This document shows positions 9,146 to 44,353 of a stretch of DNA of 44,353 nt, in pieces. The position numbers and the translations under genes are program-made. How positions within the stretch are numbered: position 1 is the stretch's first letter; each line of letters starts with the position of its first letter. The stretch covers positions 1 to 44,353 of the forward strand of contig JAAZZC010000234.1 in assembly GCA_014239335.1 (NCBI GenBank). The letters run 5' to 3'. Below the pieces are notes generated by a model. That model made no database searches, had not been told where the DNA came from, and worked only from the letters and a program-made list of their open reading frames with translations. This DNA is from Verrucomicrobiales bacterium. GTDB taxonomy: Bacteria > Verrucomicrobiota > Verrucomicrobiia > Verrucomicrobiales > DEV007.

Positions 9146-9919
9146 TTGATTATGATTTTTCGGTTATTCACTGTCGGAGTGTTTGCCTTTTGTGGCATCA
9201 TGACCACTTGGCTCGTTAGGAATGTGTATTTTCCAGAATATGAACGGCTTGCGAGCGTTGACCCTTCCCATGTGCTCGATCTTTTTCTTAAAAATGAAGA
9301 GGTGACTCATGCGTTCGTTTATCGTGGCCGTACTCTGGTCGGAGATGTGATGGTGACTTCACGAAAGTATGGAGATTCAAATGAGAGGGCCAAGATAAGG
9401 TTTATAGCTAGTAGTCAGGCCGATTCGCCGAACTTTCAGAAGCAAGATCTCAAATGGAAGGGGTCATTGGATCTTGGCCCTGCACCTTCAAGATCAATTG
9501 AGAAGATAGGTTTAACTGTGAAATTCAAAGAACCTGAAATGACCTTATCTATTAACGTCAACCCACAGAATTTCGAATTTCATTACTTGCTTATTCAGGA
9601 CGGGGAAGTTCTCGCCGATTCGGACAAGGATCCAGAGAATGAGGAAATAGCAAAGATGAAATTGCTCTTTGAGGTTTTACGAATGTCTCCGAAAAGTTCT
9701 CAGGTATCGTCGCTGCCCTTCGATGCGAGGTGGGGCAAGGCTAACATTGCAGGTCGACGTTCATCGGTATATTTCCTTAGGTTTGAGTTGCCAGGCTCAG
9801 GGGAAACAAAGTTAACCTTCAGTGAGGCTGGAGAATTTCTAGAAATGTCAACGTCTCTAGGTTATCAGATTCTTTCAGAAACTCTTTCTCATTCACAGTA
9901 TTTAAAAATCTCCCAATGA
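9146..9919 (+). CDS. Hypothetical membrane-anchored protein
   Basis: Intact 257-aa ORF with N-terminal TM; overlaps the start of the next ORF by 4 nt. Confidence 0.6.
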   Translation: MIMIFRLFTVGVFAFCGIMTTWLVRNVYFPEYERLASVDPSHVLDLFLKNEEVTHAFVYRGRTLVGDVMVTSRKYGDSNERAKIRFIASSQADSPNFQKQDLKWKGSLDLGPAPSRSIEKIGLTVKFKEPEMTLSINVNPQNFEFHYLLIQDGEVLADSDKDPENEEIAKMKLLFEVLRMSPKSSQVSSLPFDARWGKANIAGRRSSVYFLRFELPGSGETKLTFSEAGEFLEMSTSLGYQILSETLSHSQYLKISQ

Positions 9920-10650
9920 TAAATATTCAAGATTTAACAGTTCTCTATGGTGAGTACGTGGCCGTTGATGGGCTAGACCTTAAGGTGAAGGAAGGAGAGC
10001 TATTTGCTTTCCTAGGGCCCAACGGGGCAGGGAAGACAACGACTATCAAGGCGCTCACTGGGCTCCTCGGGCCTGACCGAGGTTCGGTTAGTGTGGGTGG
10101 TTATGATATGCAGACAGACCCGATCGCGGCTAAGTCAATCATGGGATATGTTCCTGATGTTGCTGTGTTCTATGATAAATTAACATCTATAGAATTCATG
10201 AGATTCATTGGAGACCTTTATGAGGTTGATCGTTCGAAGCTCAATGATAATACCGTTTATTTGTTTCAAAAGTTTGATCTTAATTCCTTTTCTCATTGTC
10301 CTATTGAGGAGCTGAGCCATGGGACGCGTCAACGTTTGGCGATTGCCGCGGCCTTAGTTCATGATCCAAAAGTGTTTGTCATTGATGAGCCGATGGTTGG
10401 ACTGGATCCACTCCATGCTCAGGCAGTTAAGGAGGAGCTCCGAGCACGTAGCGATCAAGGGGTCACGGTCCTCATGTCTACGCATCTACTAAATGTGGCA
10501 GAAGAACTCGCGGATCGGATAGGGATCATTGACCAAGGAAAATTGGTGGCCCTCGGGACTCTCAATGAATTGCGTGAGGGGGGGGATTCTTCTGCTCTGG
10601 AGGAAATTTTCCTTAGGCTCTTTAAAGATAAGGGCTCTGATGGCTCTTAA
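9916..10650 (+). CDS. ABC transporter ATP-binding protein
   Basis: Walker A GPNGAGKTT, signature LSHGTRQRLAIAAAL, Walker B VFVIDEPMVGLDP, STHL switch. Confidence 0.95.
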   Translation: MINIQDLTVLYGEYVAVDGLDLKVKEGELFAFLGPNGAGKTTTIKALTGLLGPDRGSVSVGGYDMQTDPIAAKSIMGYVPDVAVFYDKLTSIEFMRFIGDLYEVDRSKLNDNTVYLFQKFDLNSFSHCPIEELSHGTRQRLAIAAALVHDPKVFVIDEPMVGLDPLHAQAVKEELRARSDQGVTVLMSTHLLNVAEELADRIGIIDQGKLVALGTLNELREGGDSSALEEIFLRLFKDKGSDGS

Positions 10651-10713: not shown

Positions 10714-12147
10714 ATGCAGGAAGATTTCCAATTAACCATCAATGGGCTCAGCTATAGAGCTGTAGGGACTCCATTAAGGATGAGTCTGGCTGATTTTCTT
10801 AAAAATCAGTCCATTGAGCTTAGTGATGGTCTAGTTCATCGAGGACATGTAGGGCTGTTGTTTTTTCTTATCGATTTTAATGCCTGCGCAGGCCCCGTGC
10901 ACCGTCTAATCAAGCCTTCTCGAACGAGTCTCATATCAATGGCAGAACGTGAGCTTGTAGTGATTGATTCTCGTGTCGAAGATCCTAATGAGAGTTCCTT
11001 ATGGGTGAAGCTTAAGGAAGTCAAAGACAGTTCAAAGGATAAGGGCGTTTCACTGAGCAGGACGATCAGTGTTGGTCTTGAAGGTCTCGATGATGGGCAA
11101 GGGTACAGTTTGTTCTCTGATCATTTGTCCTCTGTTCTTAGGATGAATGAATCTGGAATGAAGCTTTCTACAAAGCACCTTTTGACGGTCCCGTCTTCTG
11201 TTGGGAGACTCAAAAAATTAACTTATAAGAGCTCTGAGGGTGAGCTTTTTTATCGGCCCGGAACCGTTCTCGAAGCCATCAGAATCCATGTCCTCCGGCA
11301 AGGTTCTTGTTTTGTCGGTGGAGGATTGTTTACAGAGGACGAAACATCTGAGTCAGGTGAGGCCGTTTTTATATCTCTCGAGAGCATTGATGAGTTGCGC
11401 GAAATAATATTTGAAGATGGGTATTGGACCATAGGCGCTTGCGTTTCTCTGCGCTCATTTACTGAGAGACTGAAGACTCAATTTCCCTTGATAGATGATT
11501 TTTGTAAGGGTTTCAGAGATACGCATTTTGTTAACCGCTACACTATATGGGAGGAGTTTAGTACCTCTGGGCCAAGTTCAGGGATTTTCACAGTCTTATT
11601 GTCCTTAGGCGCTGAAGTGATCATTGATGGCTTGGATGAGCGAAGGAGGATGAGTTTAGAAGAACTATTATACGTAGAAACTTTATCGACTGTGGGTGAG
11701 CAGGAACTCATCAGTGCGGTGATAGTTCCTGAGATGAAGAATTCAGAGACAATTACTTCACATTACCAAGTCATGACTGGGCCATATGAAAAAGACTCGA
11801 TCATCAGGGCGTCATTCCTAGTTGAACTGGATTCAAAAAATAAAGTTTCTAATTCCAGTATATGGTTCGATGTAGGTTCTGGCCTGCCTATAAGATTCGA
11901 GAGTGCAGAAAAACTCATCAAGGGAAGGCCTTGGAGTAGAGAGTTGGAGCAGCAGGTCAGTTCAGTAATCAGTTCGGGGGACGGGATCGGAGGATCACTC
12001 GAGATCGGAGAGGGTTTTCAAAAAGTATTAATACAGAATCTGCTATTAAAGTTCATTAATGAACATCTTGGTGAATTTGGACAGGGGCCAAGTAGATATC
12101 AATTCATTGACCTGGAATCTGAACTGACTGTGAGAAAAAATAATTAG
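10714..12147 (+). CDS. Divergent xanthine-dehydrogenase small-subunit (XdhA)-like protein, degenerate Fe-S region
   Basis: N-terminal LTINGLSYRAV...MSLADFLKN resembles the ferredoxin-like domain without its cysteines; FAD-domain-like FYRPGTVLEAIRIHVLRQGSCFVGGGLF, ISLESIDELREII, WTIGACVSL, LLSLGAEVIIDGLDERRRMSLEELL. Confidence 0.65.
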   Translation: MQEDFQLTINGLSYRAVGTPLRMSLADFLKNQSIELSDGLVHRGHVGLLFFLIDFNACAGPVHRLIKPSRTSLISMAERELVVIDSRVEDPNESSLWVKLKEVKDSSKDKGVSLSRTISVGLEGLDDGQGYSLFSDHLSSVLRMNESGMKLSTKHLLTVPSSVGRLKKLTYKSSEGELFYRPGTVLEAIRIHVLRQGSCFVGGGLFTEDETSESGEAVFISLESIDELREIIFEDGYWTIGACVSLRSFTERLKTQFPLIDDFCKGFRDTHFVNRYTIWEEFSTSGPSSGIFTVLLSLGAEVIIDGLDERRRMSLEELLYVETLSTVGEQELISAVIVPEMKNSETITSHYQVMTGPYEKDSIIRASFLVELDSKNKVSNSSIWFDVGSGLPIRFESAEKLIKGRPWSRELEQQVSSVISSGDGIGGSLEIGEGFQKVLIQNLLLKFINEHLGEFGQGPSRYQFIDLESELTVRKNN

Positions 12148-12150
12148 AAG

Positions 12151-13899
12151 ATGTCGGAATCTAAGGAAAAATCGCAGTCTCCACTGGAAATGGCCTTCGT
12201 GGTTTCGCCGTTCGAGTCTGCTCGCATTTGTTCTATAGATTTCGAAGAGGCGGCTCAACTGAGTGGAGTCCATGCTGTTCTCACCTCGGTTGATGTTTTA
12301 GGCGAAAATAATGCAATTTGTGGTCTTGGAGACATTCCCTTATTTGCGAAGGATGAAGCGGCTTTCATAGGCCATTTGGTTGCTGTTGTTGTGGCAGAAA
12401 GAGCTTCCATTGCCCAGGCTGGAGCGGATTTGGTACGTGTCGATTATAAGCCAAAGCCACCAGTTCTAGAGATTGAAGAGGCACTAAAATTGAGTTCTTT
12501 TCATTCGGATCCTCAGGAATTACGTAATGAAAAATCCTCCGAAGGTGAGCCTGATGAATTGAAAGAAATTGATAAGAGTTTTGTATTTCCGGATCATGTC
12601 TGTCTGCAGGAATTGGGTGGTGTAGAAGCGAACGTTGTCGACTCGGGCGGGCTTAGTGTTTCTGTTGATGCGTCGTGTGATTCGTTAGTTCTTAGAAATA
12701 GCATTGCTTCTTTAGTGGGGCTCAATGAGGAACAGGTTGAGGTCACTTGTGAACGAGAAATTAAGTGCATTGATGGGAGGTTCTCCCAACTTTTTATCTG
12801 TGCGGGCCTCGCTTCTCTGTGTTCATTTAAGACAGGAAGATTGGTCCGGTTTAGGCCCACGAATGCCCCGAAGGAAATGCTCACTGCACGTTCGGGTCAG
12901 GTCCAAGCTAGGATCCTTTTGAGGCATGACCCTTCCGGGCTGATTAAATCGATAGATTGTAATGTGAATGTGGATTCTGGATCAGCGGCCGGCATGAGTG
13001 ATTCTTTCAGTAGCTCATTAATGAGTTACTTTGATGAGGTTCACTCCTGTCCTCAGATCCGGATATCATGTTCCTTGTGTAAAACGAACCGGCCTCCGAG
13101 CCTGATTGGGGACAAGGAAGGTATTGCTATTGGTCTGTTCATCTCTGAGGAGCTGATAGCAGAGATTAGTTTGCAAATGAATGGATCAATTCATTCTCTT
13201 AGAGAGATTAATTTTATCCATTTCATGGATGATGAAAATCAAGATGACGATGCGCTTTGTGCTCATCACAAAATCATTAAGGAATCGTGGTATCGACTCA
13301 TTGATGATTCGTCTTACAAGGAAAGACAAGAAGAGATCGTTCGATTTAATGAGTCTGCTCCTCATTATAAGAGAGGCATAGCGGCTGTCCCTGTGAAGGT
13401 GGGCGAGGGGACTGAAGTTGTTGATGAGGACGAGTCAGGATCGGTGGAAGGCTCTCGAGGGTTTTCTTTCGGGTCAGCCGTTGCGGAGGTTCAGGTAGAC
13501 TCGTTCACTGGAGAGGTTTTTCTGATCAGGGCCGATGTTCTACAATTATCTACCGACAAACTGAGGCCGGCTGTACAGATCTCAGAGATGAGCGCTTCGT
13601 TCTTAGATGGTCTGCGGAATTATTTCTTTCTTGGTGAGGGAGAAACTGCTCAGGAACTCAGTGATTCACTTCTTTTAGGTTCGAGGGCAGTGCCCGAAGA
13701 CCTCAGATTTAATTTAATGGATCATAACGAAACATCAGTAAGATTTTCATCATCAGTATCTTATTGCCTTTCGATGAGCGTTTATCAGGCAGTAAGAAAG
13801 GCGCTGAGCCAATATAGAAAATCACTTTCATTAGTTGATTTGCCATTAATATTAAACCCTGAGAGTGTTTATAACGCTATTCATTACAGAGATTCTTAA
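12151..13899 (+). CDS. Divergent xanthine-dehydrogenase large-subunit (XdhB)-like protein, degenerate molybdopterin site
   Basis: AQLSGVHAVLTSVDVLGENNAICGLGDIPLFAKDEAAFIGHLVAVVVAERASIAQAGADLVRVDYKPKPPVL and C-terminal GFSFGSAVAEVQVDSFTGEVFLIRADVLQ...LRPAVQISEM match the XdhB layout; only 582 aa. Confidence 0.7.
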   Translation: MSESKEKSQSPLEMAFVVSPFESARICSIDFEEAAQLSGVHAVLTSVDVLGENNAICGLGDIPLFAKDEAAFIGHLVAVVVAERASIAQAGADLVRVDYKPKPPVLEIEEALKLSSFHSDPQELRNEKSSEGEPDELKEIDKSFVFPDHVCLQELGGVEANVVDSGGLSVSVDASCDSLVLRNSIASLVGLNEEQVEVTCEREIKCIDGRFSQLFICAGLASLCSFKTGRLVRFRPTNAPKEMLTARSGQVQARILLRHDPSGLIKSIDCNVNVDSGSAAGMSDSFSSSLMSYFDEVHSCPQIRISCSLCKTNRPPSLIGDKEGIAIGLFISEELIAEISLQMNGSIHSLREINFIHFMDDENQDDDALCAHHKIIKESWYRLIDDSSYKERQEEIVRFNESAPHYKRGIAAVPVKVGEGTEVVDEDESGSVEGSRGFSFGSAVAEVQVDSFTGEVFLIRADVLQLSTDKLRPAVQISEMSASFLDGLRNYFFLGEGETAQELSDSLLLGSRAVPEDLRFNLMDHNETSVRFSSSVSYCLSMSVYQAVRKALSQYRKSLSLVDLPLILNPESVYNAIHYRDS

Positions 13900-13940: not shown

Positions 13941-14017
13941 GCCGACGTAGCCCAATTGGTAGAGGCAAACGACTTAAAATCGTTCAAGTGCGGGTTCGAG
14001 TCCCGCCGTCGGCACCA
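13941..14017 (+). tRNA. tRNA with UAA anticodon (Leu-type decoding), encoded CCA, short variable loop
   Basis: GCCGACG/CGTCGGC acceptor 7 bp; GCC/GGC D stem; AACGA-CTTAAAA-TCGTT anticodon arm; variable CAAGT; GCGGG-TTCGAGT-CCCGC T arm; A73 then CCA. Confidence 0.9.
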
Positions 14018-41849: not shown

Positions 41850-42001
41850 TGAGATTACTCCAAATAATCTAGAACTGGTATAGTTCAAATGCTCTTATTC
41901 TGGACTCCTTGAAAATACGTCAATATTGTGCTAATTGAATAAATTATTAGCAGAAATCAGTCGAATGTTATCATTCTACTGCTTTATTTGCTCATAAAGA
42001 T

Positions 42002-42076
42002 GGCAGGATAGCTCAGTGGTAGAGCAGAGGATTCATAAGCCTAAGGTCGGGAGTTCAACTCTCCCTCCTGCTACCA
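42002..42076 (+). tRNA. tRNA with CAT anticodon (elongator Met or Ile2), encoded CCA
   Basis: GGCAGGA/TCCTGCT acceptor (G1.U72 wobble), GCTC/GAGC D stem, loop TTCATAA, GGGAG-TTCAACT-CTCCC T arm, A73, CCA. Confidence 0.88.
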
Positions 42077-42206
42077 CTCTATAATAAGGGAGTTATGGGG
42101 ATTTACAGATTTTACAGAAAATGACTATTGCCCTATTATTGCCCGGGCGACGATCAGTGCTAGCGTCAACGAACTCCATGATTCGCACTCGCACCCTCAT
42201 CACAGC

Positions 42207-44353
42207 ATGAAGATCCTCCCTTCCTTCCTCGGAGTTTGCTCGCTATTCGTTACCGCCCCAGCGCCTGCCGCGCCGCCGGTGCTCCTCGACGACCAGTTCG
42301 TGCTTCCGCCGGGATTCCACATCTACCGCGCCGCAGCACCGGAGTTGACAGGCGGTTCGTACGATCTCACCTTCGATGGCGATGGCAGACTGCTGGTCGG
42401 AGACGGCCAGAACGTGCGGCGCTTGAAGGATGAGGATGGCGACGGCGTCTACGATTCGCAGGAGGTGATCGCGAAAGGGCTCGGAGGTCGCGGTCCGCAG
42501 GGGTTGCTCGTCTACGGCGACCATCTCTACGCGGTCGGCGGCGATGGCGTGCAGCTGTTCAGCGGTTACAATTCGGACGGGCCGCTGAAGCACGAGGGGC
42601 GGGTCGGCGCGCCATTTAGCACCGGCGGCGATCACGCCGCGCATACTTTGTTGCGTGGGCTCGACGGATGGATCTACCTGGTCTCTGGCGACGGCGGCGG
42701 CACCGGCGGTCGCAAACACATCACGGAGAAAAGTTCGCCGGTACAGACTGAGCGTGCGGCCTCGGTATTCCGTTTTTCTCCCGATGGCAAGAAGTGGGAG
42801 TGCATCGGCGCAGGCGGGCGCAACCCGCCGAGTCTCGGCATGAACTACCTCGGCGAGTTCTTCAGCTTCGACAGCGACATGGAATGGCACGTCGATATCC
42901 CGTTCTACCGCCCGGTGCGGTTGAACCACTGGTCGACCGGGGCCGATCTCGGCTGGCAGGGCACCGGCGCGTTTCCGCCCTACTACATTGATACGATTCC
43001 CAGTGTGCTCGACGTCGGGCGCGGTTCGCCGAATTGGGGTGTCTTCTACGAACACTACCAGTTCCCAAAAGCGTACCGTGATGCATTCATCTGCTGCGAC
43101 TATCGTTGGAAGTCCGCGACCAGTGGCGGCTACGACAAGTCCGGCCGGCTGGTGACATTTTTCATGAAGCGGGCCGGGGCGAGCTGGAAGGCGGAGATGA
43201 GATTGCTCGCGGAAGCAAAGCCCGGGGCGAAGGAGCCGGGCGGCAAGGGCATCAGTTTTGCGGTGGTCGATGTGGATGTCGCCCCTGATGGCAGCCTGAT
43301 GGTCAGCGATCACAACCAGGGCGTGTGGCGGATTTTTTATGACGCGGAACAGAGCGAGGAAATTCCACCCATCGTGCCGGATCTCGAAAAGCTCCCGGGC
43401 GGAATGTTTGGTGTCCCGCAACCGGGGTCGGAGTGGAGCCGATTGCGCTTCGAGTCACTCCGCCGGGATAGATTAGTTGATATGGCGGGGAACTCATTCG
43501 CCGGCAAGCCGCAACGCCTACGGTTCATCGGTCGGATGGCCGCCGAATTCGACACACTCGACTTGGCTGTATTGAAGAATTGGAGCGTCGCGGCGCAGGA
43601 GGAAGTGCGTGCCCAGGCAGCCTGGCTGATCGGCATCCGCGGCCGGCCTGAAGAGGTGCCGTTGCTGTTGGAACTGGTCACGGACAAGGATCCGTTTGTG
43701 CGCCGCCGTGCTGCTGAAGCCCTCGGCCATTTCGGGGATCCGCGCGCGACGAAACCATTGATCGAACTCATGGGCGACGCGGATCGTCACGTGCGTTATG
43801 CCGCCATGACGGCGCTGGCGCAACGGCCGCGTGACGAATTCCTCGCCGCTGCCGCGGCGCAGGGAGACCTGCGCATCGCGATGCGGGCGCTGGTTGCCAC
43901 CCAGGTGCGCAATGAACGCGCCAGTGCCGATGCGGTGCAGCCAATCGTGCAACGTCTCCTTAAGTGGAAACCGGTCGCGCTCGAAGACCAGCTCGATCGC
44001 CTGCGCGTGTTCAGCCTGTTCAAGAACGAGATCGTGCAGAGCGCGGAGCTTCGTGGTGCGGTCCATCAGTTTCTATTGACCGGATTGCCTGCAGACGAAC
44101 GCGATCTTCGCTGGGAGCAGGTGCGTCTGGTCGGGCAGTTCGGTGTCGGAGAGGGGTTTGCACCACTATTGAAAATGTTGGAGTCCGGAACCGATGGGAC
44201 CACGCAGTTTCACATTGCAATGGCGATGGCGGGAATCCCCGAGGGGTGGACGCCTGCGGAGAGTACGCGTTTGGCAAAGTGGCTGATCTCAACCCAGACC
44301 GGATGGTTCGCAGAACTCAACGGTAAGGGCCGGCAGTTTGGAGGATTCTGGGC
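42207..44353 (+). CDS. PVC-type putative membrane-bound dehydrogenase (TIGR02604-like N-terminal propeller) with HEAT repeats; 3' end outside window
   Basis: Open frame from ATG 42207 to the window end with no stop: MKILPSFLGVCSLFVTAPAPAAPPVLLDDQFVLPPGFHIYRAAAPELTGGSYDLTFDGDGRLLVGDGQNVRRLKDEDGDGVYDSQEVIAKGLGGRGPQGLLVYGDHLYAVGG...; HEAT-like VRAQAAWLIGIRGRPEEVPLLLELVTDKDPFVRRRAAEALGHFGDPRATKPLIELMGDADRHVRYAAMTAL. Not in the supplied ORF track. Confidence 0.88.
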   Translation, partial: MKILPSFLGVCSLFVTAPAPAAPPVLLDDQFVLPPGFHIYRAAAPELTGGSYDLTFDGDGRLLVGDGQNVRRLKDEDGDGVYDSQEVIAKGLGGRGPQGLLVYGDHLYAVGGDGVQLFSGYNSDGPLKHEGRVGAPFSTGGDHAAHTLLRGLDGWIYLVSGDGGGTGGRKHITEKSSPVQTERAASVFRFSPDGKKWECIGAGGRNPPSLGMNYLGEFFSFDSDMEWHVDIPFYRPVRLNHWSTGADLGWQGTGAFPPYYIDTIPSVLDVGRGSPNWGVFYEHYQFPKAYRDAFICCDYRWKSATSGGYDKSGRLVTFFMKRAGASWKAEMRLLAEAKPGAKEPGGKGISFAVVDVDVAPDGSLMVSDHNQGVWRIFYDAEQSEEIPPIVPDLEKLPGGMFGVPQPGSEWSRLRFESLRRDRLVDMAGNSFAGKPQRLRFIGRMAAEFDTLDLAVLKNWSVAAQEEVRAQAAWLIGIRGRPEEVPLLLELVTDKDPFVRRRAAEALGHFGDPRATKPLIELMGDADRHVRYAAMTALAQRPRDEFLAAAAAQGDLRIAMRALVATQVRNERASADAVQPIVQRLLKWKPVALEDQLDRLRVFSLFKNEIVQSAELRGAVHQFLLTGLPADERDLRWEQVRLVGQFGVGEGFAPLLKMLESGTDGTTQFHIAMAMAGIPEGWTPAESTRLAKWLISTQTGWFAELNGKGRQFGGFW

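Follow-up and report, generated by a model that had tools for sequence, protein, structure and literature searches.

The window, meaning here the whole stretch of 44,353 nucleotides analysed from Verrucomicrobiales bacterium contig JAAZZC010000234.1, carried two adjacent ORFs on the plus strand, at 10714-12147 (477 aa) and 12151-13899 (582 aa). Both started with ATG and had open frames, and the gap between them was 3 nt, exactly as given in the original prediction, which regarded them as xanthine dehydrogenase (XDH)-like proteins that keep the XdhA/XdhB layout. The features of the locus are listed below.

9146..9919, + strand: protein with one N-terminal hydrophobic stretch (TM protein), upstream of the pair
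9916..10650, + strand: ATPase of an ABC transporter, no permease recognised, upstream of the pair
10714..12147, + strand: XdhA-like ORF, 477 aa (Pfam, NCBIfam, model, Foldseek)
10714..10977, + strand: XdhA-like aa 1-88, where the first [2Fe-2S] domain is expected; four of four Cys ligands absent
10975..11190, + strand: XdhA-like aa 88-159, expected second [2Fe-2S] helical domain; four of four Cys absent, pLDDT <50
11248..11733, + strand: XdhA-like FAD_binding_5 fold, aa 179-340 (Pfam); both FAD loops replaced
11794..12063, + strand: XdhA-like CO_deh_flav_C-like domain, aa 361-450 (Pfam)
12151..13899, + strand: XdhB-like ORF, 582 aa (Pfam, NCBIfam, model, Foldseek)
12190..12459, + strand: XdhB-like Ald_Xan_dh_C a/b hammerhead, aa 14-103 (Pfam), the best preserved part
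12688..13215, + strand: XdhB-like MoCoBD_1-like region, aa 180-355 (Pfam)
12754..12795, + strand: REIKCIDGRFSQLF where GGGFGGKE is expected in XdhB (alignment with genuine XDH)
13087..13122, + strand: NRPPSLIGDKEG where TNxxSNTAFRGFGGPQ is expected in XdhB (alignment with genuine XDH)
13411..13455, + strand: XdhB-like deletion junction, aa 421-435 (alignments); low-confidence loop in the model
13747..13779, + strand: SSSVSYCLSMS where KAVGEPP with the catalytic Glu is expected in XdhB (alignment)

A tRNA gene (13941-14014) was located just 3' of the XdhB-like ORF.

Homology and cofactor sites

The Pfam search gave matches over the cut-off for FAD_binding_5 in the XdhA-like ORF (62 bits) and for Ald_Xan_dh_C (69 bits) and MoCoBD_1 (47 bits) in the XdhB-like ORF. 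CO_deh_flav_C (narrowly) and MoCoBD_2 (36 residues only) scored under it, and neither Fer2 nor Fer2_2 was matched by Pfam in the pair. The best NCBIfam matches were xanthine_xdhA (TIGR02963) for the XdhA-like ORF and xanthine_xdhB (TIGR02965) for the XdhB-like ORF, with 72.8 bits against a cut-off of 467 and 169.8 bits against a cut-off of 849.5, respectively. A sequence search of the PDB with the XdhB-like protein detected mammalian and bacterial XDH, with E down to 1e-34. Judged from these matches, the pair is certainly homologous to XdhA/XdhB, and by score it falls outside both equivalog families.

Motif tables were prepared from L-INS-i alignments that included 20-24 rows of genuine XDH. 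All eight Fe-S cysteines of XdhA were missing from the XdhA-like ORF. The regions of the plant-type [2Fe-2S] cysteines read DGLVHRGHVGL and RLIKPSRT, and the region of the second [2Fe-2S] motifs, QCGxC and NLCRCTG, was absent or unstructured. Only one Cys occurred in the first 175 residues, compared with at least eight in most genuine XdhA rows. The FAD loops AGGT(D/E) and RNxATLGGN...SPIGD were replaced by GGGLFTE and VNRYTIWEEF. In the XdhB-like ORF, GGGFGGKE, AFRGFG and (K)AVGEPP, the last with the catalytic Glu, were all replaced. The motif replacements quoted in the original prediction were thus all found in the sequence and at the expected positions, and the tables agreed with its claim that all redox cofactor sites are lost in this pair. 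The L-INS-i alignment placed every motif region and the residues differed, which ruled out an intact XDH under another alignment.

Beyond the losses predicted originally, the large subunit had also lost an internal stretch of its second Moco domain. The motifs TEMGQG and TAASSGTDLNG were missing from the XdhB-like ORF because this stretch, of about 130-170 aa (about 140 mammalian residues in the PDB alignment), was deleted at aa 421-435.

Predicted structure

The AlphaFold2 models reached pLDDT 75 and pTM 0.77 for the XdhA-like protein, and pLDDT 84 and pTM 0.84 for the XdhB-like protein. Confidence was low at the deletion junction and where the second Fe-S domain would be. The position of the first Fe-S domain (aa 1-88) was predicted over most of its length as a confident fold of strands and short helices. 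The best Foldseek matches of both models in the PDB were xanthine/aldehyde oxidoreductases, with E of about 1e-45 for the large subunit and 1e-21 for the small subunit. The XdhB-like model matched the overall XDH fold with a TM-score of 0.77-0.80 over the query, and Pfam, the model and Foldseek agreed on the FAD_binding_5/CO_deh_flav_C fold in the XdhA-like protein. Retention of the XDH fold is well supported by these models, although this support is not independent of homology, as the input alignments consisted of window and database-locus sequences with genuine XDH rows among them. The kept XdhA/XdhB layout was consistent with both the Pfam domains and the predicted folds, and the two checks proposed for it, the HMM search (FAD_binding_5 and Ald_Xan_dh_C over the cut-off, CO_deh_flav_C just under) and structure prediction of each subunit, came out in its favour.

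Distribution among relatives

Whole-genome searches detected the stripped pair in eight of the ten genomes that represent the window's genus. The two exceptions had contigs that broke off within the small subunit (G001) or immediately past the ABC gene (G009). In a profile search, the small subunit was near full length (E <1e-90) in 50 of the 75 genomes and 10 of the 18 genera of one Verrucomicrobiales family. The genus copies in G002, G003, G004 and G006 were of a shortened form without the CO_deh_flav_C-like C-terminal domain. The two genes were adjacent in all 30 pairs tabulated, with gaps of -14 to 77 nt. As the pair is conserved across the genus and the family, it is not a chance product. 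The other family members bore the database labels Verrucomicrobiales, Verrucomicrobiaceae or Akkermansiaceae, and the wider collection search used a subset of the large subunits.

Elsewhere in the phylum, the strongest matches were mostly to XDH encoded as a single chain, in long ORFs of roughly 1230-1370 residues; the four of these that were readable had intact motifs. A PF01315 search of the genus genomes, which are incomplete, found no intact XDH besides the pair, and the possibility of a spare copy beside an intact XDH was rejected within that scope. One family member, G031, had both a stripped pair and a genuine XDH. A contig of a MAG labelled Chloroflexi (L140, 2-1789) carried a large subunit of the big clade described below, nearest to that of G015, and is probably a binning error.

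Phylogeny and order of loss

The large-subunit tree separated 30 family rows from 25 XDH rows with support of 100/100. Within the family, a big clade of 18 stripped large subunits (100/100) and a small clade consisting of G023, G020, G025, L077 and G033 (98/94) were recovered. The window's genus was monophyletic (100/100) and grouped with the small clade, not with the big clade (100/99). A single clade of the big clade and the genus was rejected with p-AU 0.009, which is indicative since the grouping was named after seeing the tree. The neighbourhood of the window locus, with NfeD/FloA, a sigma-54 regulator, FKBP, LysE, a ROK kinase and metF, was common to the small-clade loci, which supported orthology by position with the small clade. 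The pair descends from genuine XdhAB and forms one clade, confined to one Verrucomicrobiales family among the genomes searched.

The original prediction had raised the question whether the same cofactor residues are lost in all homologues. This held for Moco: the FRGFG, TEMGQG and TAASSG motifs were missing in every family member examined, so that the loss of the Moco site is best placed on the family stem. It did not hold for Fe-S and FAD, as G023, G020 and G025 retained an FAD loop and the full set of eight Fe-S cysteines, and Fer2 and Fer2_2 were still matched by Pfam in G023. At the position of the catalytic Glu, these three had Pro, Pro and Ala, respectively. In the big clade, Glu was kept at this position (CAEAP) and the rest of the motif was lost. 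Both [2Fe-2S] sites were lost at least three times, with at least three changes of the Fe-S state on the tree, and the window's genus, in which the FAD loops and the block of the second Moco domain were also missing, was the most stripped of the family members.

Selection on the gene pair

Pairwise dN/dS was calculated by the Nei-Gojobori method with our own script, for the window versus G008, G005 and G007. The values were 0.20, 0.16 and 0.10 for the small subunit and 0.29, 0.23 and 0.21 for the large subunit, respectively, and 0.08-0.38 in every domain tested of the pair. Among the neighbours, the ABC ATPase (0.06-0.07) and the response regulator (0.03-0.08) gave lower values, NfeD and FKBP gave values similar to those of the pair, and the LysE and ROK rows for G005 were mismatches, both genes being absent from the G005 contig. 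The dN/dS of the pair in the window's genus was 2-4 times that of most neighbours. No internal stop was present in the eight genus copies at a synonymous divergence of 0.25 to >1, and simulated neutral drift gave about 15-40 expected in-frame stops on average. Both genes are thus under purifying selection, with a constraint looser than that on most neighbours.

Since dN/dS was 0.10-0.29 and no stop was found, the pair is not a pseudogene, and a decayed copy with relaxed selection and broken frames was rejected. The original prediction had called decay unlikely, and it was borne out by the open frames, the dN/dS test that it proposed and the conservation of the pair across the family.

Cofactor supply and gene context

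XdhC is the Moco inserter for XDH (PMC2997495). It was absent from all ten genus genomes, including the window genome, which is 59% complete, and none was found in the sampled family genomes whose stripped pair was near full length. G016 and G018 did have it, as did several genomes from other families, and most of these carriers also gave other molybdohydroxylase matches. Most genomes of the genus, though not the incomplete one of the window, encoded MoaA and MoeA domains, which ruled out loss of Moco synthesis as the cause of the stripping.

At the window locus, the ABC ATPase is likely to be in the same operon as the stripped pair. The TM protein sat beside the ABC ATPase in the family loci examined, and adjoined the stripped pair in some lineages only. 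In genus g17 the pair was at the same locus without the TM-ABC genes, and in the big-clade examples examined these genes were elsewhere in the genome, which ruled them out as a general partner. As the neighbours are not conserved across the family, the gene context gave no functional clue.

The pairing of the TM protein, which has no Pfam match, with the permease-less ABC ATPase was observed in its own right at 9146-10650 of the window, 8557-10102 of L168 and 8083-9614 of L171. It spanned the family loci of several genera, sometimes near ExbB/ExbD-like genes, and is possibly an undescribed two-gene unit. A lipoate-protein-ligase-like gene directly preceded the stripped pair on its 5' side in four big-clade loci among those checked (L059, L090, L094 and L114), and was absent in the window. 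At the end of the window (42001-44353), a tRNA gene (42002-42073) marked an abrupt rise in G+C, from about 46% before it to 62% after it, and an ORF from 42207 to the window end encoded a secreted dehydrogenase/HEAT-repeat-like protein, as judged by eye. This segment is possibly a recent acquisition or a misassembled join.

Probable refilling of the pocket

Of the positions with ≥95% fixation in genuine XDH, about a dozen were ≥85% fixed for a different residue in the big clade. The swaps included Q to R, Q to E, F to E (FRGFG), F to D (GISFT) and G to R, together with E to D and Q to D in TEMGQG, and the replacement residues were conserved and often charged. Judged from motif membership, the swapped positions would lie in the old cleft. 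Decay alone is not expected to fix new residues there, so the replacement of the pocket suggests repurposing in the big clade. This is extended to the window's genus by analogy only.

Discussion

The old XDH fold probably has a non-redox job now, because the cofactor sites were lost stepwise and the pair is nevertheless still under selection. The reading that we favour, with moderate confidence, is a cofactor-free XDH-fold complex for ligand binding or scaffolding. The XdhA-like and XdhB-like proteins would still assemble as an XdhAB-like complex, which would be free of redox cofactors and function in binding or scaffolding. Other residues would have refilled the former substrate/cofactor cleft, among which the conserved, often charged ones of the big clade may bind a new non-redox ligand, and the window's genus would have kept a reduced form of the complex under looser constraint. 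We put forward more tentatively that this is a neofunctionalised xanthine oxidase lineage, widespread within a single bacterial family, whose Mo pocket may have been rebuilt with conserved polar residues for a new ligand or non-redox catalysis. Of what was proposed originally, the stripped, non-decaying pair with an XDH fold stood; a repurposed heterodimeric scaffold or binding protein is an inferred role and the most suitable reading left, though the pair evolves faster than most neighbours in the window's genus.

Parts of the pair keep being lost in the window's genus, which is compatible with slow erosion too. According to this explanation, the family ancestor made use of the pair, which is now eroding in the genus and has little or no function there. 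It would account for the deleted block, the lost C-terminal domain of the four short small subunits and the elevated dN/dS, especially of the large subunit, but dN/dS is well below 1 in every domain, the eight genus copies have no internal stop, and the two genus assemblies without the pair end inside or just before it. We consider slow decay unlikely. It is quite improbable that the pair serves as an accessory or regulatory part of the upstream TM protein-ABC ATPase system: the genes share the strand and are closely spaced in the genus, G023 and G020, but the g17 pair does without them and the big-clade examples have them elsewhere.

An oxidoreductase with a flavin or a new metal site at altered positions and a different reaction would fit the FAD_binding_5 score, the Fe-S sites and FAD loop kept in G023, G020 and G025, and the large-subunit cysteines, including a CxxC at 307/310, common to G000, G008, G005 and G007. 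However, neither FAD loop is preserved in the window's genus, a new Cys/His metal site was not supported there by any Cys set common to all members, and no intact Moco motif set occurs anywhere in the family, so that a retained redox role is very improbable.

The window pair has the same two-subunit order as bacterial XdhAB of the Rhodobacter capsulatus type (PDB 1JRO/2W3R), and its domain order and predicted fold match XdhAB and bovine xanthine oxidoreductase. It differs from them in lacking the [2Fe-2S], FAD and Moco motifs, the catalytic Glu and XdhC, and in having lost part of the second Moco domain to a deletion. Within the CO dehydrogenase family, flavoproteins of the CoxM/CutM type share FAD_binding_5 and CO_deh_flav_C with the XdhA-like protein and have intact FAD loops, unlike the rewritten ones here. 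Among the MopB proteins, Nqo3/NuoG of complex I and others lost Mo/W-bisPGD and had their fold reused (PMC10100899). Nqo3/NuoG resembles the stripped pair as a molybdoenzyme fold kept for another role after losing the Mo cofactor, but belongs to the DMSO reductase superfamily, whereas the stripped pair is of the xanthine oxidase family; Nqo3 still has Fe-S clusters and serves electron transfer, unlike the window pair. In that other large molybdoenzyme superfamily, Moco loss with the fold kept is also known for ActB and FhcB. No report of a Moco-less or pseudoenzyme XDH was found in the literature searched, which omits most subscription journals.

Annotation pipelines may label these stripped proteins as xanthine dehydrogenase and so infer purine oxidation that is unlikely. 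The living relatives show a series from Fe-S and FAD without the Moco site, through the loss of Fe-S, to the loss of all sites with a shortened protein, which makes the order of cofactor loss and the retained purpose of the scaffold directly testable.
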